64,000 nucleotides of DNA from Desulfurellales bacterium (GTDB taxonomy: Bacteria > Campylobacterota_A > Desulfurellia > Desulfurellales > Hippeaceae), in the NCBI GenBank assembly GCA_027035575.1, contig JALVUQ010000063.1, positions 1 through 64,000 on the forward strand. Direction: 5' to 3'. Both the position numbers and the translations under genes were made by a program. This document shows, piece after piece, positions 2,416 to 26,852 of this stretch. The notes under the pieces are model-generated. The model searched no databases. It was not told the origin of the DNA and saw only the letters and a program-made list of their open reading frames with translations. Each line of letters starts with the position of its first letter. The first letter of the stretch is position 1.

Positions 2416-2796
2416 TCATAAAAAATCCGAAGAAAGAAAGAGTGCGTAATGCCGAGATACTTTTATCAGGCTTTCATATCCATATTGCCCACAAAATATA
2501 CCTGGCGTGAAAAAATGAGTTAAATAAAGTTTAATGCAGATAATTATATTTGCAGGATGGTGAAACGATTTGTTTATCAGCCATAAAAACCTGTCAATTC
2601 CGTATGCGAGAACACAATAAGAGCTACAATATACTCTAAGGCGACAAAAAAGGTGATACTCTAAGTTTTTTATAGCATTACAATTTAAAAGCCTGTTAAA
2701 CATTTTATAATCGTCAATGAAATTTGTATGATAAAATAAACCCAAAGAAACGAAAATTAAGAATAAGACTTGATATTTAATATCTAAATTTATCAT
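2416..2796 (-). CDS. Doubtful 126-residue ORF, unrecognised
   Basis: I do not recognise this ORF. It begins with a hydrophobic stretch (residues 8-22) and is rich in Cys, Tyr and Phe later on, with no motif I know. It starts 9 bases after the preceding gene on the same strand but has no visible ribosome site. It may be a real small membrane protein, a decayed fragment, or not a gene. Confidence 0.3.
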   Translation of the reverse strand: MINLDIKYQVLFLIFVSLGLFYHTNFIDDYKMFNRLLNCNAIKNLEYHLFCRLRVYCSSYCVLAYGIDRFLWLINKSFHHPANIIICIKLYLTHFFTPGIFCGQYGYESLIKVSRHYALFLSSDFL

Positions 2797-2805
2797 AGAT
2801 TGTTT

Positions 2806-3366
2806 TTAAATTGACTTTTTTAATTCACAACAAGATATTTCTTTTCGATTGCAGTTAAAGAGATTTAATTCCCAATAAGCTATGGGAACATTCTTTATCT
2901 TATTCTTTATTGCTTCAATAACATATTCATACTTACTTATAGTGTCAATCTTTGTCCATACAAAATTCCTTAAACCAACAGCTTTCAAAACCGTTGAATC
3001 TATAGGGCAGTGCGGTGGCATTGCAATCTCACCCATACACCACAAATACTTCAAATATAGATTCAAAAGCTTTTGAACAGTACCTATGTTCAGTCTGCTG
3101 TTTAAAATAATACCTTTACCACAAAAACGGGAGCAGTTTTGAAGCTCTTCCAAGTTAGCGATATGCTGCTTTTCGCTAACATATCTGCAATATTGAGGAA
3201 TGATAAAACATTCTATATACTCTTTTATGCATTCTTTGAATTTAATACGTTGTGTATCAGAAATATCGGGAGAATAAACCTTGTTATGCTGGAATGCCCC
3301 TGTGACTGCCAACATCCAAAGTTCATCTCTTAAAAATGTTGTTTTGAATTTTGAAGGACCACACAC
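2806..3366 (-). CDS. Conserved-looking hypothetical protein, 186 residues
   Basis: The function is not recognised. The ATG start is preceded by AAGGA at a sensible distance. The protein is soluble, with no signal peptide or membrane segment, and has many Cys residues. The central part (about residues 95-130) contains KLLNLYLKYLW followed by PPHCPID, a pattern that looks like a conserved core rather than random sequence. It lies directly downstream of the terminator that ends the pilin unit, so it needs read-through or its own promoter, and I see no clear one. The Cys-rich composition differs from its neighbours and may mean accessory origin. Confidence 0.55.
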   Translation of the reverse strand: MCGPSKFKTTFLRDELWMLAVTGAFQHNKVYSPDISDTQRIKFKECIKEYIECFIIPQYCRYVSEKQHIANLEELQNCSRFCGKGIILNSRLNIGTVQKLLNLYLKYLWCMGEIAMPPHCPIDSTVLKAVGLRNFVWTKIDTISKYEYVIEAIKNKIKNVPIAYWELNLFNCNRKEISCCELKKSI

Positions 3367-3383
3367 ATTAAATCCTTAAAATA

Positions 3384-3411
3384 AAAAAAGAGCCGAGAAC
3401 GGCTCTTTTTT
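3384..3411 (-). terminator. Rho-independent terminator of the pilin unit
   Basis: The 12-bp arms at 3384-3395 and 3400-3411 enclose a 4-base loop. On the minus strand the GC-rich core is followed by six Ts. The upstream arm overlaps the stop codon of the small secreted protein gene, so the two-gene pilin transcript should end here. Confidence 0.85.
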
Positions 3412-3742
3412 AGTAAGTACTCCAACTTGAAAAGTCTGTTGAATTTCCGTTGGTACAACCTCCGGCCTGAGTCACTCCTGTTTGGTAATATATCACAGAT
3501 GAGTCACTTGCCACACCATAAGCCTTACCCGTGCCTTTGGAATTATATGTGGAAGCCGAATAAGTATCTCCGGTGGGTGAGTTATAGTTGGCTTGTACAT
3601 TTGATGAAAGGGTAACGGTAACAGTATTAGTAGCACCTAAAGTTATTGACCCGCCGGAACTACTTTGAACAGCAGCAAAAGAAACCCCGTTAAATAATGC
3701 CATTACTGAAACAGCCATTAAGAACATAAATATTTTTTTCAT
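3410..3742 (-). CDS. Small secreted protein downstream of the pilin, possible pilin partner
   Basis: This 110-residue protein starts with a clear signal peptide (residues 1-23, ending SFA) and is then Ser/Thr/Gly/Asn-rich with many tyrosines. Motifs include SSNVQANY near 47-54 and KAYGVASDSSVIYY near 73-86, with a single Cys (C97) in the mature part. It has a strong GAGGAGG ribosome site and sits 28 bases after the pilin gene, inside the same terminator-bounded unit. In Geobacter a short pilin lacking the globular head (PilA-N) is followed by a separate gene for the globular partner (PilA-C). Size, secretion and position here fit that role, but homology is not shown. Confidence 0.65.
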   Translation of the reverse strand: MKKIFMFLMAVSVMALFNGVSFAAVQSSSGGSITLGATNTVTVTLSSNVQANYNSPTGDTYSASTYNSKGTGKAYGVASDSSVIYYQTGVTQAGGCTNGNSTDFSSWSTY

Positions 3743-3770
3743 AAAAAACCTCCTCTCTGCACTTAATTTT

Positions 3771-3998
3771 TTAGTTCGGATACTTCATATTATCTGCATA
3801 ATATGCCTCTGCTGTCGTTTGAATGGTCTTTAAATCACTCAACGCAGCAGAATCTTGTGCACTTTTCCTATACTTCGCATACTGCGGTATTGCGATAGCT
3901 GCCAATATTGCAATAATTGCAACAACCACAAGCAGCTCAATGAGTGTGAAGCCCTTTCTGTCTGACTTCAATGTTTTGCCAATTTTTTGAATCACCAT
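3771..3998 (-). CDS. pilA: Short type IV pilin (PilA-N type)
   Basis: This 75-residue prepilin has leader residues 1-16 ending KG. Cleavage before F17 gives a 59-residue mature pilin starting FTLIELL with Glu at +5, the class III signal read by PilD. Only the hydrophobic N-terminal helix and a short tail are present; the beta-sheet head of ordinary pilins is absent. Aromatic residues lie at mature positions 1, 24, 27, 50, 51 and 57. Geobacter sulfurreducens PilA, from memory, has aromatics at 1, 24, 27, 32, 51 and 57. The ribosome site AAAGGAGG is ideal. Transcription is likely from the sigma-54 promoter at 4161-4176. The assembly genes pilMNOPQ are about 8.5 kb away, and other pilus motors are not in the window. 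Confidence 0.92.
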
Positions 3999-4160
3999 AA
4001 AAAACCTCCTTTAAAATTGGTTGAGTGGTTAAACAAGTTGAATAGTTAAATAGTTTAGTGGTTGAGTAGTTAAGTAAATCCAATACACCTTCGCACCTTT
4101 TTACTTTACGCTAAATCAAAGCCAACATCACCTCCTTTTTTAATTAGTCAATCTATGTAG

Positions 4161-4176
4161 AGCAATTTCAGTGCCA
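4161..4176 (-). promoter_or_regulatory. Sigma-54 (-24/-12) promoter for pilA
   Basis: On the minus strand this reads TGGCAC (4171-4176), 5 bases, TTGCT (4161-4165), an exact fit to the RpoN consensus TGGCAC-N5-TTGCW. Transcription should start near 4150, giving a leader of about 150 bases before the pilin ATG at 3998. RpoN control of pilA through the PilS/PilR two-component system is established in Pseudomonas and Geobacter. The regulators are not in this window. Confidence 0.85.
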
Positions 4177-4326
4177 ATGTTGTTATAACAAGGTTTTTAT
4201 GAAAAACATCTTTTTCAAACATACGAATAAAACACTGTAGGAAATTCCCTGAATTCTCTGACATTTCTCAAATGCACCATTTAAACGGCAAAATACTACC
4301 ATAACAGCAGTAAAAAATCAAGTTCT

Positions 4327-4366
4327 TTGACTATCATTTTTTGTCAATATTGACATTTTTTGTCAA
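4327..4366 (-). promoter_or_regulatory. TTGAC/GTCAA half-site array, candidate enhancer for pilA
   Basis: Four half-sites alternate in orientation: TTGAC at 4327-4331, GTCAA at 4343-4347, TTGAC at 4350-4354 and GTCAA at 4362-4366. The middle pair forms a perfect 14-bp palindrome. The array is about 180-215 bases upstream of the predicted pilA start site, the usual place for an enhancer-binding protein. In Pseudomonas, PilR binds several TGTC-containing sites upstream of pilA. Assignment to PilR here is inference. Confidence 0.5.
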
Positions 4367-4399
4367 TTTAAGTAAAAGTTTTATTTAGTAACACAATTT

Positions 4400-6067
4400 T
4401 TATTCCATATTCAGATAAAAATTACCTAAACGTGTTTTAAAAAATTCCAAAGCCCTCTCTCTAAACTCCTTATTATAGCGATACATACCTTCATCAAACA
4501 CCAAACTCTTTAAAACAGCCGGAGTTTTTTTAAGAATATTTTTATAATCGTTTTTATCAAATCTTAAAAAACCGACCTCAATCGAATGCAGATTTTTAAT
4601 TTTATTAATTTCTGTCAACAGCTCATCATAGTCGTTCAATCTCTCAACAAAAACAGGGTCGAGCCTAACACCTATTTTATAACCGGTACTATCAAGCAGT
4701 TCAATCGCCTCCATCCTTTTTTTCAAACTCGGCGTCAGGTGTTCATATCTGTCTATAATCGGCTGTGGATTCAAAGAGAAAGCAACTATTATATTTCTGC
4801 AAGGCTCCGTTTCGAGTAGGAAATTTATATTATCCGATTTTGTTCTAAGCTCCAAAAAAATATCCTCATCTGCAAACTCTCTGAAAAAATCAATAAGTTT
4901 TTCATTAAAATTGGAAAAACCCGCCATTGCCAAGGAGTCTGAAAACGTACCGGAATAAAAATACAACGGTCTTGTTTTATCCTCCTGCACTGTCTTTTTT
5001 ATGGCAGAAAAGTAGTCTTCGTAATTCAAAAAAATCACGGGGTTAAAACTTCTGAAGTATCCCTTTAAAAAACAGTAAGAACAGTCGTATATGCAGTTAT
5101 AGGCATTCAAAATTGAATAGCCGTATGAGCCAGAGGGTGTATAATTACTTGGTGTTTTTCTTAAAAATTCCCCTTTTTTGTTTGCAAAGACAATACCGTT
5201 TTTATCTTTTAAGTTATGAAAACAGGCAACGTAATCGTCAATCTCTACAACCTTTTTTGCACTTAAATTCAAATTTATTCTATTTTTCTCAACACCTTTT
5301 TCGATAAAGACGCTAAATCCTGCTTTTTCTTCATTCTCCTTTTTTGAGTTTATCAAAATTTTTGAATACAACTTCTGCCTGTTTGTGAATGTTAATCTTT
5401 TTGTTTTAATCAACCGCTTTAAACCGTTTAAAATTTTAATGTTCGAAATGCCCGTATGCTTAAATATTTCAAGCATAGTTTCGTCTTTTTCTATCCAAGC
5501 AAGTCTTTCGATAACATTCTGCACCAAACGAACATTATATACAAAGCCGTTTGTTCTAACCGATTCAATCGAATTTCTTTCGTTTACATCGCTTGCAGCT
5601 CTTAATACAATCCCGAACTTTCCGATGCTTTTGACTGCTTTTGCAAAAAAATAGCTCTCTTTATCAACGCTGTCGGCAAAAAGACTTAAAAACGAATTAT
5701 CCGTTTCATATTCGTCTAATAAACTTACGCCCTCAAAACTCGGCAGTTCGTTAATGTTCGGCAAATCAACAGGGTTAAAAACGGGCTTTTTGTTGTGTAT
5801 CAGCTTTACCCTTTTAAGCGTAAATATATCGCCAATATTAAGTTTATCCGTAAGCGTTCCCGAAAACCCGAACAAAACGGCTATGTTTATATCTTCGTTT
5901 TTAGATAGAATATCAACAATATTATATCCCAAACTCAGTCCGCCGCCACCATAATTAACAAACACGGAAATGTTGTCGTATTTAAACAGCTTACTACTTT
6001 TTTTAAACGGGTATAATTTCAGAAGTGGTTCAATCTCCGCTTTGTGTTCGCTTGCAATCAGCAGCAT
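4400..6067 (-). CDS. Fusion of an MTAN/futalosine-hydrolase-like nucleosidase and a spore-photoproduct-lyase-like radical SAM domain
   Basis: The protein is 555 residues from the ATG at 6067. Residues 1-180 look like a nucleoside phosphorylase/nucleosidase: start MLLIASEHKAEI, glycine loop NYGGGGLSLGY, GFSGTL, and IGDI. All three catalytic acids of MTA/SAH nucleosidase appear kept: E11, E137 (in DKES) and D160 (in RAASD). Residues about 275-555 resemble spore photoproduct lyase: C325-x3-C329-x2-C332 for the SAM-binding 4Fe-4S cluster, then SGTFSDSLA, LRTKSDN and SLNP. An earlier TTG at 6103 also opens the frame, but the ATG matches the family N-terminus. The gene overlaps lolA by 38 bases at the end of the pyrimidine operon. 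Substrates are unknown; removal of 5'-deoxyadenosine or repair of a nucleoside-like lesion are guesses. Confidence 0.8.
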   Translation of the reverse strand: MLLIASEHKAEIEPLLKLYPFKKSSKLFKYDNISVFVNYGGGGLSLGYNIVDILSKNEDINIAVLFGFSGTLTDKLNIGDIFTLKRVKLIHNKKPVFNPVDLPNINELPSFEGVSLLDEYETDNSFLSLFADSVDKESYFFAKAVKSIGKFGIVLRAASDVNERNSIESVRTNGFVYNVRLVQNVIERLAWIEKDETMLEIFKHTGISNIKILNGLKRLIKTKRLTFTNRQKLYSKILINSKKENEEKAGFSVFIEKGVEKNRINLNLSAKKVVEIDDYVACFHNLKDKNGIVFANKKGEFLRKTPSNYTPSGSYGYSILNAYNCIYDCSYCFLKGYFRSFNPVIFLNYEDYFSAIKKTVQEDKTRPLYFYSGTFSDSLAMAGFSNFNEKLIDFFREFADEDIFLELRTKSDNINFLLETEPCRNIIVAFSLNPQPIIDRYEHLTPSLKKRMEAIELLDSTGYKIGVRLDPVFVERLNDYDELLTEINKIKNLHSIEVGFLRFDKNDYKNILKKTPAVLKSLVFDEGMYRYNKEFRERALEFFKTRLGNFYLNME

Positions 6068-6566
6068 AGAATTCGTATATGGTTCTGTTTGAATATATGT
6101 CAACTATAATCAACTTTTCGATTTGTCCGTCTTTAAAATAGGTATATACTTTGTTTATATTGCTCTTGTATTTTGGAGTAAGCTCGTATCCGCTTTGCAT
6201 TTTCTTTATATCAAAAAGGCTGTTTATATCCTCTTTGCCCAAAAACAGCAAAAACAAAACTTTATTAAACCCGGTCAGCTTATAGGTGTATTTTTTGGAA
6301 TCACGATAATCAACCGCTTCAAAGTCGTTTATTATCACTCTCTCATTCTTATAATCAAAAATCATACTCTTTTTTGCCTTAATGGTGAGAATTCCCGTTC
6401 TTTCAATTTTTTGCCCGCTCATTGCATTTATTGAGGTCTGTTTGAAGTCCAAAACGGTGGTCTTGTTTGAATATAATTTAAAAAAATGAGTTATCCGGTT
6501 TGCGGCATAAGAGTCAAGCGTTATGAGCAATACCGACAATATCACCAACACTCTTAATATTTTCAC
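6030..6566 (-). CDS. lolA: Periplasmic outer-membrane lipoprotein carrier LolA-like protein
   Basis: The protein is 178 residues with a signal peptide (1-21, ending SYA). The mature part has the LolA pattern: an early strand with FKQTSINAMSGQ, then GILTIKAKKSMIFDY, matching the 'G.l.i.rP..frw.y' beta-strand pair of LolA. LolA carries lipoproteins across the periplasm from LolCDE to LolB. The gene overlaps the end of pyrD by 53 bases and the downstream fusion gene by 38, so it is translated from the same operon mRNA. The assignment rests on strand pattern and secretion, so a LolA-like relative is also possible. Confidence 0.7.
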   Translation of the reverse strand: MKILRVLVILSVLLITLDSYAANRITHFFKLYSNKTTVLDFKQTSINAMSGQKIERTGILTIKAKKSMIFDYKNERVIINDFEAVDYRDSKKYTYKLTGFNKVLFLLFLGKEDINSLFDIKKMQSGYELTPKYKSNINKVYTYFKDGQIEKLIIVDIYSNRTIYEFYAADCKRTQSGD

Positions 6567-7437
6567 CTTCCAAAAACTCCTTTATGCCTTTTATTATCTC
6601 AACGGTTATATTAGGATTTGTGAAGTTTGCCGTACCTATCTCTATAAGCGCAGCTCCAGCCATTAAATACTGAAGCGCAATATCGCTGTTGTATATACCG
6701 CCGACGCCTATAATCGGTACTTTGATTTTTTCATAAACCTCATAAACCATTCTCACACCGACAGGATAAATTGCAGGACCGCTCAATCCTCCTGTTCTGT
6801 TTGCCAAAAACGGTTTTTTTGTTTTCGTATCTATAACCATACCGGTAATTGTATTTATGAGGCTGACGGCATCCGCACCACCATCGCAGGCGGCTGTAGC
6901 GATTGCTGCAACATCATCGACGTTTGGTGTCAATTTAACTATAACGGGCTTGGAGGTGTGTTTTTTAACTGAGCTTGTAAGGCTAAAAACATCATTCGGA
7001 TTCTTGCCGAACAAAGCTCCTCCTTTTGAAACGTTCGGGCAGGAAACATTAACCTCCAAAGCCGAAACCCTGCCGATATGCTCCAGTTTATCAGCCAATT
7101 CAACAAATTCATCTGCTTTCGTTCCGTATATATTTGCTATTATGTGAGCATCCACATCTTCAAGTAGCGGCAGTTTTTCCTTTATAAACCTGTCAATGCC
7201 AACATTTTGCAAACCGATTGCATTCAACATACCGCAGGGTGTTTCAACTATTCTCGGCGGTTTGTTGCCCTTTTTCGGCTTGACGCTTAAACCCTTGACA
7301 ACAAAACCACCGAGGGCATTCAAATCCATATATTTTTTATACTCGGCTGCATATCCGAATGTGCCCGATGCCGTCAAAACAGGGTTTTTAAATATTAAAG
7401 AACCGAGCTTGACGGTTAAATTCACAGAGTTTGCCAT
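6514..7437 (-). CDS. pyrD: Dihydroorotate dehydrogenase B, catalytic subunit
   Basis: This 307-residue FMN enzyme oxidises dihydroorotate to orotate in pyrimidine synthesis. The N-terminal part has LTVKLGSLIFKNPVLTASGT. The catalytic loop NVSCPNVSKGG carries the class 1B active-site Cys. The FMN-phosphate site appears as GVGGIYNSDIALQYLMAGA followed by EIGT. It overlaps pyrK by 16 bases; PyrK supplies electron transfer to NAD+, so this is the NAD-linked PyrDK type. It belongs to the operon starting at smpB/carB. Confidence 0.96.
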   Translation of the reverse strand: MANSVNLTVKLGSLIFKNPVLTASGTFGYAAEYKKYMDLNALGGFVVKGLSVKPKKGNKPPRIVETPCGMLNAIGLQNVGIDRFIKEKLPLLEDVDAHIIANIYGTKADEFVELADKLEHIGRVSALEVNVSCPNVSKGGALFGKNPNDVFSLTSSVKKHTSKPVIVKLTPNVDDVAAIATAACDGGADAVSLINTITGMVIDTKTKKPFLANRTGGLSGPAIYPVGVRMVYEVYEKIKVPIIGVGGIYNSDIALQYLMAGAALIEIGTANFTNPNITVEIIKGIKEFLEGENIKSVGDIVGIAHNA

Positions 7438-23675: not shown

Positions 23676-24446
23676 CTACGCACTGTCCAGACCTTCAAAC
23701 GCAGCTCCGTATGCTCCCATAAGCTGCGGATGTTCAGGCAAAAGAGCCTTTGTGCCCATCTCCTCTTCTATCATAATCCTGATAGCCCTGTTCAAGACAA
23801 CGCCCCCGGAAAGCATAAGCGGAGGCATAAAGCCTATGGCATAAACCATTGCAGCGATTCTTTTAACCAAAGAACGATGCAGCCCGCGAATAACATCCTC
23901 CAACTTCTCACCGTGAGCCAACCTCGATATTACCTCGCTTTCGGCAAACACGGCACAGGTGCTTGATATGGGCGTTTCTTTATCGGTTGATAAGGCTATT
24001 TCGCCCATCTTTTCCATTGGGATTTTCAATCTCCAAGCTGATGTTTCCAAAAACCTCCCTGTACCAGCCGCACACTTGTCGTTCATAATGAAATCAACTA
24101 TGTGTCCGTTTTGGGCAATCACGACAACCTTGCTGTCCTGCCCTCCTATATCAAGAAGCGTTCCGCCTTTTTTAAAATATTCAAACACACCCCTTGCATG
24201 GCAGGTAATTTCCGTTACCCTTTTGGCTGCATTTTTTATAAGTTCGCTTCCGTAACCGGTTGCAACTATCGGGATATCCTTAAAGTGATACTCCTTTTTA
24301 ATTTCATCCATCATTCTTTCAACCTGAATTTCTATCTTCGGGTCGGTCTGCTCCATACGGTAGAATGCAATTTTTCCAAAATCGTCTATGCCCACAATCT
24401 TAACAACCGTGGAGCCCGCATCTACGCCAATCGATTTTACGCCCAT
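23676..24446 (-). CDS. 2-hydroxyacyl-CoA dehydratase / benzoyl-CoA reductase activator ATPase
   Basis: This 256-residue member of the BadF/BadG/BcrA/BcrD (HgdC) family has the phosphate loop [15 protein letters not shown] at the start and DIGGQDSKV near 97. The two Cys that hold the inter-subunit 4Fe-4S cluster appear in [11 protein letters not shown] and [11 protein letters not shown]. The homodimer hydrolyses ATP to push a low-potential electron onto the dehydratase or reductase. The start is the ATG overlapping the previous stop (ATGA). It is the last gene of a four-gene operon. Confidence 0.93.
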
Positions 24447-25771
24447 CAAACACCCAACATCTCTAAAAATGCGTTTAGTCTGTTTTTTACCTGTTCATCC
24501 GCATACGAGCGCGGGTCGCTGTGGTCGGCTTCAAGAAGAAGAGCCGGTTTGGAGGCTTGTGTTACCAATCTGTTTCTTTGGTCAACCTGCCCCATCGAGT
24601 AGGGCTTGCAAGACCTGTCTGAGTGGAGTATCGCACCGTCAAGTTTGTATTCGTCAATCATCCTTTCCATAACTTTGAGCTTATACTCTGCGCTTCTGTT
24701 TAATATCGGGTGGATATACGTTTTTGCCAAAGACTCAATCGGGTTGTTCACATCAATCATAGGCGCAAGCTCACCCCAAGCATTCGTATATGTAGATGCA
24801 ACAACGCTAACGCCGCGTTCAGCTAAAAACTCAGACAAAAACCTAAGTTTATGCCATATGGGAAGGTTATCCCACAAAAGCCTTTTTTTCTCGTTTACAA
24901 CCGCCCCTATGCCTTTTTCTATCCTTTCATCAATTTCAGCAAGCATATTTGCGTAAAAATCAACCGTCTCGGCGTCTCCTCTTTTTTCCACAACCAACGC
25001 CATATGTATAAACTGGTCGAAAACGGATATCGGAGCAGGTACGTTCTTGCCCCTTTCCATAATTTCGAGCCAGAGCGCAGCAGCCTCCTTGCTTAATTTA
25101 ACAACATTTTTAAGCTTAGCAAAATCAAGGCTTTTTTTGGCAGCCCTTTCAGCCGTTTCAATGGAGTTTTCAAGTTGATTTTTCACGTATTCTACCTGGT
25201 GAGGCTCGGCGTTGTCGTATAAAAAAGGCGTATCGATAACTATCAAAGGCACATTGTAGTGCTTGGCAAGCACACGATACCAAAAAAGTACGGTTTGACA
25301 GATATTTGTACAGGCAAGCAGTATATCGGGCTTCGGCAGTTTTCCAACGGGTGTTTTGCCGCTTAGCATAGTCCCTATATCCGTTCTGGCGTAGGAACAT
25401 ATATCAACCGAATAACCCCTGTTTTCCGCTTCTGAGGATATATCAAGAGTCGCCCTTCTTGCACCGCAAAGTGCAGCGTGGTTTTCGGGATAAAGTATAT
25501 AAAACCCCAAGGCTTTGAGTATTTCGACAGGTGCTCCCGATGTTACCCACGCAACCGGTTTAACCCCGTTAACATAACGACCCTCAAGGTAGTGTTTTGT
25601 AATAAGCTCCTTTGTTTTTACGCCTATCTTCAAAGGGCTTGCCAGTATATCGCTTCTCCAATTTTTAGGCTCTTTGAAGTTTTTATACGCCCTGTTTGCT
25701 TGCCATTTAACAATCCGTGAGCCAAACAGCTTAAATTTGATATGGTAGTTTAACGATTGAGCAACAGACAT
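24446..25771 (-). CDS. 2-hydroxyacyl-CoA dehydratase family subunit (HgdB/BcrB-like)
   Basis: The protein is 441 residues. Candidate Fe-S ligands lie in [18 protein letters not shown] and [10 protein letters not shown], and the C-terminus has the family pattern [11 protein letters not shown]...RLNAFLEML. Known relatives are 2-hydroxyglutaryl-CoA, lactoyl-CoA and phenyllactoyl-CoA dehydratases and the ATP-dependent benzoyl-CoA reductases. The large N-terminal region and GQVDQRN segment look more like the reductase-type subunits, but the substrate cannot be read from sequence. One base separates it from the partner subunit upstream. Confidence 0.88.
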
Positions 25772-25772
25772 A

Positions 25773-26852
25773 CTATCCTCTCTTCAGTGTCTCGATAAAA
25801 GCCCTGATTCTTGTTTTAACCTGCTGAGGCAGAGGCTCGTTTATGTCAACCTCAACCACAATAGAGCGAATGTTTGCACTTTTTAGACTGTCTTTTAAGA
25901 TTGGATGGTAAAACTTCTCCGGTTCGCAAAACTTAACATTATAAAAGACAACCCCTTTTGAGGACGAGTTTCTTACAATATCCAATAAAAAATTCTCTCT
26001 GTCTTTGAAAGAACTGCCCTTCATAGCATCCGGCGGAGCGTTTAAAATTCTTTGAGCCATCCTCTCAAACGGGTCGTCAGACTCACCTAAAGGATAAATT
26101 CTTCTTCTTAAAGAAGCAAAATCGTCATCTATAACCACACCACCCGACTCCTCAACAAGGCTAAAAACATCCATTGGCTCGGGCAATACACCTGAAAATA
26201 CAACACCGACAGAGCCGGACGGTTTGTATTTTTTTTGTATAAATTCATTAACAAGTTTTTCAAACTCAACAAGCGGCAGATACTCCCTTAAACGGATAAG
26301 CCTGTAAAATTCCGAAGAGCTTGTTTTGAATTTTCTGTGAACTTCATAGGCTTGAAGGGTCAGTTTATCCGCATCCTCTTCTTTTATTACGGCATCAAAC
26401 AGGTCGTCTTTTGTAGGCTTAAACCCGGCAAATCCGGCAATATTTTCATAAAGTCGTTTAAGCTCTTCTTTTAAAAACTCAATATCTTCTCTTCGTTTTC
26501 CCCTTGGAATATATAAAGTAAAAACAGGTCTATCCTTTTTCACAAACCCTTTCAAGATGCTTCCCAATCCCTGAAGTGAATCGCAGCAGTGAGGAACAAG
26601 AATAATATCTGCAACATCCAAAGCACCCGAAAGGTAAAAAGAGAGCCCGCTTTGAACAACGGAGCAGATGTAGCTTTGAAGATGTGCCATAGCAGGACTC
26701 GTATCGACTTTTGGAGGTCCCCAAACCTCAATGGGGTGAATACCGAAAGCCCTGAAAAGTTCACGAGGGTAGTGTATGGGAAATACCGCGGCAACGCCTT
26801 TTTTGTCTTTTCTGACCTTCTCTACAACCTCAAGCCTCGTAGGAACACTCAT
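25773..26852 (-). CDS. 2-hydroxyacyl-CoA dehydratase family partner subunit
   Basis: This 359-residue protein is the second subunit of the same family. Cys residues in [20 protein letters not shown] and [10 protein letters not shown] fit the three cluster ligands seen in these subunits. Together with the 441-residue partner it should form a heterodimer holding [4Fe-4S] clusters at the CoA-thioester active site. It overlaps the acyl-CoA ligase gene by 4 bases. Confidence 0.87.

Follow-up and report, generated by a model that had tools for sequence, protein, structure and literature searches.

The window, that is, the whole 64,000-nucleotide stretch of DNA analysed, comes from a bacterium that metabolises sulfur and belongs to the order Desulfurellales; its genome assembly comprises 1.72 Mb in 108 contigs. 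Positions 4400–6067 of the window's reverse strand, the strand of the fusion-gene features and of the LolA-like gene given below, encode a protein of 555 amino acids plus stop (ATG at 6067, stop at 4400, zero internal stops), in which an MTA/SAH nucleosidase (MTAN)-type domain and a spore photoproduct lyase (SPL)-family radical SAM enzyme share one chain. This pairing had been proposed in a first-pass annotation of the same DNA, and the open frame, the profile comparisons and the Foldseek searches bear it out. The full length is kept in Desulfurellales genomes, and the start methionine is the same one in every orthologue found. The preceding LolA-like gene (6030–6566, family named by eye) overlaps the start of the fusion gene by 38 bp at its 3′ end, and the order carB-greA-pyrK-pyrD-lolA-fusion is conserved in the relatives examined, where we take the neighbours to belong to these families from inspection of their sequences. 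An assembly chimera was ruled out, since the fusion is conserved across genomes. Between an O-antigen-ligase-like gene and the fusion, the stretch 2416–4400 holds a short secreted protein (3410–3742) and AT-rich, repetitive-looking non-coding sequence. Farther along, the stretch 23676–26852 of the window appears by eye to encode the activator and two subunits of an enzyme of the 2-hydroxyacyl-CoA dehydratase/benzoyl-CoA-reductase type, and the gene upstream of these resembles an acyl-CoA ligase, likewise judged by eye.

The N-terminal half (residues ~1–175, 5543–6067) was assigned to the MTAN/PNP_UDP_1 type from a profile comparison with the PDB, from Foldseek and from PF01048 matches in orthologues. 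The window protein alone gave no match in the PF01048 search and was not among the matches of the MTAN equivalog model TIGR01704. PF01048 matches were found in 12 of the 16 orthologues (best 3.6e-8), the fused relative G386 passes both the PF01048 (34.8 > 25.1) and the SPL cut-offs, and one unfused cassette partner nucleosidase passes TIGR01704 (101.2 > 73.8). A profile built from 23 diverse partner nucleosidases, some fused and some unfused, retrieved MTAN structures (3bl6, E 1.4e-23) and placed E11 (6035–6037), E137 (5657–5659) and D160 (5588–5590) on the catalytic acids E12, E174 and D197 of MTAN, the very positions that the first-pass annotation had aligned by eye. These three acids are invariant in 16/16 orthologues, and together with G67 and G70 they are the only residues fully invariant in all 23 partner sequences. 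An arginine or lysine at position 156, four residues ahead of D160, occupies the MTAN R193 position. A Foldseek search with the predicted structure found MTAN 4qfb (E 2.6e-11, TMt 0.71), and the MTAN matches include Chlamydia CT263. The AlphaFold model was made from a five-sequence alignment, with pLDDT mostly 80–92 in this domain; its cluster-loop region (298–342) is of poor model quality, which limits the model as a guide to how the two active sites lie relative to each other. As judged from sequence and model, the N-terminal half has the MTAN fold with every residue of the hydrolytic triad in place, and its activity is predicted.

The C-terminal half (residues ~286–555, 4403–5212) matches the Pfam SPL family PF20903 with 60.3 bits (cut-off 27) and the SPL equivalog TIGR04070 with 89.3 bits, far below its cut-off of 400, and its best structural matches are SPL crystal structures (Foldseek 4rh0, E 2.9e-12). 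Apart from one weak Rv2578c-family match, only SPL-type families were matched, HpnH not being among them. The CX3CX2C motif and the SGTFSDSLA, TKSDN and SLNP blocks that had been read as SPL signatures are all present. The 4Fe–4S motif C325-C329-C332 (5072–5095), invariant in 16/16 orthologues, corresponds to C90/C94/C97 of Geobacillus SPL (GtSPL), and the equivalents of Y96, K174 (K410, 4838–4840, invariant) and mostly S142 are also kept. In SPL, Cys141 (Cys140 in Geobacillus) gives the hydrogen that initiates the cascade back to SAM (PMC9850924). This hydrogen-donor cysteine is absent in all of ~90 relatives, most of which carry a glutamate at the Cys140 position within a GTGE[F/L]xD motif; the window protein has T374 there (4946–4948), and Desulfurellales proteins have T or S. 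The Tyr98 equivalent is phenylalanine in all Desulfurellales and variable elsewhere. Thus, the doubt already voiced about classic spore-photoproduct repair is supported by the absence of the hydrogen-donor cysteine. The half reads as an SPL-family radical SAM protein in which the cluster motif and SAM-site residues are kept and the Cys/Tyr relay is lost, from which we infer that enzymes of this kind consume SAM or else rely on a different hydrogen donor.

Between the two halves lies a helical middle region (residues ~176–285, 5213–5542), a possible remnant of the C-terminal part of a ParB-like partner. At three loci (L086, L087 and L089) the nucleosidase clearly bears such a part (hhalign 3.7e-11). 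For the Desulfurellales region, the comparison with ParB-like proteins gave E ~0.01, against ~0.3 for a reversed decoy, which is only suggestive of the same origin.

The fusion is carried by all Desulfurellales genomes but one, in two families, with two copies fragmented at contig ends; the single genome without it is 88% complete, and its lack of the gene is probably a gap. A search for the same fusion in related genomes, which had been recommended, found it also in a second GTDB class (3/3 genomes, two families; G275, G138 and G386) and, as a 623-aa version, in Fusobacterium vincentii SB055. The Fusobacterium fusion and the short-chain dehydrogenase after it span 4179–6979 of locus L189 (NZ_CP084075.1), on an unannotated 2.1 Mb replicon, recorded as a plasmid, that is probably a chromosome. 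Searches of phage and plasmid collections with the SPL part matched this record and two faecal phage contigs. The earlier statement that no described protein has this pairing stands insofar as full-text searches of the open-access PMC literature returned no description of the pairing or of the gene cluster; the fusion itself, however, is order-wide and occurs in at least two other lineages.

In 19 of 87 non-Desulfurellales SPL-like loci, a nucleosidase is fused to the SPL-like gene or encoded in the same orientation no more than 4 kb away, whereas the density of PF01048 genes, as measured, predicts ~0.3 such loci. The genetic link thus far exceeds chance, although the P value is only indicative, because these 87 loci lack independence and in part supplied the sequences for the nucleosidase profile. 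On a tree of the SPL-like half, the nucleosidase link requires at least nine changes. In one clade (SH-aLRT 97), 16/16 rows are fused or have a nucleosidase directly ahead, one of these having been skipped by ORF calling and recovered by translation. No nucleosidase lies near the SPL-like gene in 67 of the 94 tree rows, at least one of which reflects a missed gene; since most sampled SPL-like genes are of this kind, the coupling is not obligatory across the wider family. The Desulfurellales fusion condenses into one gene what is a common arrangement of neighbouring genes, and the occurrence of the two parts fused or adjacent in many other bacteria suggests that the nucleosidase and the SPL-like enzyme cooperate in an undescribed reaction.

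Two settings recur. One combines the nucleosidase and the SPL-like enzyme with a short-chain dehydrogenase, whose gene overlaps or lies directly 3′ in six genomes (G135, G272, G077, G275, G138 and G386) and follows ~0.2 kb after the fusion in Fusobacterium. The other is a cassette in the order nucleosidase, GT2, ParB-like, SPL-like (L128, L144, L162, L171 and L140), with the nucleosidase and GT2 fused in L141 and the ParB-like and SPL-like proteins fused in L109, L113, L133 and L152. Cassettes of this type span L128:1768–5191, L140:3741–7393, L144:1445–5008 and L171:776–3764, and their GT2 proteins share a highly conserved CEDYDLWLR...GGHxDQLS signature. A defence system was considered and rejected, as PADLOC gave no SPL, GT2 or ParB-like match and one MTAN received only a generic nucleoside-phosphorylase match. 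At L087:3300–5527, a nucleosidase and SPL-like pair has as divergent neighbour an apparent mtnA (methylthioribose-1-phosphate isomerase, by eye), a type of enzyme that is also reported in 5′-deoxyadenosine breakdown.

The PF01048 matches in 19 Desulfurellales genomes include neither a stand-alone MTAN or MTAP nor a stand-alone futalosine hydrolase; apart from the fusion, each genome has just one PF01048 gene, which encodes a 6-oxopurine/purine-nucleoside phosphorylase (assigned to PRK08202 in the three genomes checked). Every genome of the order examined has SAH hydrolase, so SAH is handled elsewhere and its clearance was rejected as the main role. The futalosine route is conserved in the order (PF02621 in 19/19 genomes, MqnE and its neighbour in 18/19), leaving the cleavage of aminofutalosine or futalosine there without an obvious enzyme, given that no stand-alone hydrolase was found. 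The fused nucleosidase domain may perform this cleavage in the order. A hydrolase of the aminofutalosine-deaminase family (L096:15230–16375, 166 bits against a cut-off of 320) occurs in one Desulfurella-like genome that lacks a futalosine hydrolase or MTAN of the stand-alone kind, and a bypass by deaminase and phosphorylase instead of the fused domain is possible there. Menaquinone was nevertheless rejected as the reason for the fusion and cannot explain the linkage, because the second fused lineage (G275/G138/G386), like many linked genomes, lacks the futalosine pathway. A Desulfurella mqnA/D-type gene near the fusion lies ~3 kb off in a separate operon and was not used as evidence.

The explanation that we tentatively prefer, with somewhat less than even confidence, is a two-step enzyme in which the radical half would consume SAM and the nucleosidase half would hydrolyse the adenosine-containing product, probably 5′-deoxyadenosine. 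Because the relay that hands the radical back is lost, the SPL-like half would be expected to consume SAM and to leave 5′-deoxyadenosine at each turnover; the N-terminal half would then convert this to adenine and 5-deoxyribose, which would take away a known radical SAM inhibitor and render the reaction irreversible. In several lineages, the product of the radical half would pass to the neighbouring short-chain dehydrogenase or to the GT2/ParB-like pair. It has been reported that 5′-deoxyadenosine, a by-product of radical SAM enzymes, inhibits them and needs to be cleared, which MTAN-type nucleosidases do (PMC8102628; PMC6302742), and biotin synthase is described as requiring a nucleosidase in vivo in the part of one of these articles that cites its refs 9–10 (PMC8102628). 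The self-clearing enzyme raised as one idea in the first-pass annotation has thereby become the leading explanation, with both activities predicted; it is supported by the invariant triad, the lost relay residues, the recurrent linkage and the lack of another MTAN among the PF01048 matches of the order, as well as by the persistence of the link in genomes without the futalosine pathway. Against it stand the divergence of the nucleosidase domain, to the point that the window protein has no PF01048 match, the majority of sampled SPL-like genes that have no nucleosidase nearby, and the glutamate that most relatives carry at the Cys140 position. Moreover, an enzyme that has lost the cysteine need not consume SAM, since a different residue might serve as the hydrogen relay.

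The closest rival to 5′-deoxyadenosine clearing, though one we consider rather unlikely, is cleavage of an adenosylated intermediate. Here the radical half would attach the 5′-deoxyadenosyl radical to an unsaturated substrate, and removal of adenine by the nucleosidase would turn the adduct into a ribosylated product that the dehydrogenase or glycosyltransferase could process. HpnH/HpnG in hopanoid synthesis and MqnE/MqnB in menaquinone synthesis, the established precedents of adenosylation followed by adenine removal, work by this logic. The recurrence of GT2 or dehydrogenase neighbours, the presence of a dedicated nucleosidase where a genome has further PF01048 genes as well, and the frequent scores of partner nucleosidases with the HpnG model TIGR03468 (46 bits for L128, 47 for L088 and 50 for L144, all far under the cut-off) agree with such a route. 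However, the window domain itself reaches only 15.3 bits with that model (cut-off 187.1), no cassette GT2 was found in the host's own genome at E below 1e-20, and to our knowledge SPL-family enzymes are not adenosyltransferases. A broader form of the same chemistry, to which we give only a small probability, would be a widespread undescribed pathway in which Cys-less SPL-like enzymes and a dedicated nucleosidase form an obligate partnership, adenosylation and adenine removal add a ribosyl-type group, a dehydrogenase or glycosyltransferase completes the product, and the Desulfurellales protein is the one-chain form.

That the PF01048 matches in the order include no other MTAN or MTA phosphorylase makes it conceivable that the N-terminal half is a general housekeeping nucleosidase for MTA, 5′-deoxyadenosine and aminofutalosine, its SPL-like attachment being secondary, and the conserved futalosine genes without a stand-alone hydrolase fit this. 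Such a role is unlikely on balance, since linked genomes that lack the futalosine pathway, or that possess further PF01048 genes as several do, need another reason for the linkage; the domain is also divergent from MTANs, and the deaminase-family hydrolase of the Desulfurella-like genome permits a bypass. Repair of a nucleic-acid lesion, in which the radical half would split or modify a damaged nucleoside or base and the nucleosidase would cut the glycosidic bond, would suit a family that acts on thymine dimers and the frequent ParB-like, possibly DNA-binding, neighbours. It is nonetheless improbable: the catalytic cysteine and tyrosine of SPL are absent, MTAN-type sites act on free 5′-modified nucleosides, and the operon neighbours in the order are pyrimidine synthesis genes and lolA rather than repair genes. 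Strong divergence from MTANs and the missing PF01048 match of the window protein could also point to a sensor that binds an adenosine-containing ligand after loss of catalysis, an idea with very little to recommend it, since over 23 divergent sequences it is exactly the catalytic residues that are conserved best.

SPL-family proteins that lack the catalytic cysteine occur commonly among bacteria, and the name 'spore photoproduct lyase' is usually passed on to them. The nucleosidase fusion and the recurrent link predict the fate of the SAM-derived product of these Cys-less enzymes, and the fusion is a single soluble protein in which that prediction is testable. If 5′-deoxyadenosine is cleared in cis, the protein would represent the first built-in answer to the inhibition of radical SAM enzymes by their product, as we know of no earlier one; if instead an adduct is depurinated, it would reveal radical adenosyl transfer of a new class.

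Compared with known systems, the N-terminal domain shares with MTAN (Pfs/MtnN; PF01048, TIGR01704) the fold, the E12/E174/D197 triad and R193 as R/K, whereas it is very divergent, lacks a PF01048 match of its own and is a portion of a bigger enzyme. The radical half shares with spore photoproduct lyase (SplB; PF20903, TIGR04070) the fold, CX3CX2C, K174 and most S142 equivalents; unlike SplB, the fusion has no Cys140/141, carries Phe for Tyr98, falls far under the equivalog cut-off and has a nucleosidase attached, and its host is not known to form spores. HpnH/HpnG and MqnE/MqnB likewise pair a radical SAM enzyme with an adenine-releasing nucleosidase of the PNP superfamily, but these pairs are separate proteins, whereas here the radical half belongs to the SPL family and the HpnG score is negligible. 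A free MTAN that aids biotin synthase and other radical SAM enzymes likewise would remove inhibitory 5′-deoxyadenosine (PMC8102628); it acts in trans on the whole pool, whereas the fused or linked nucleosidase is tethered to its radical SAM partner or co-encoded with it.
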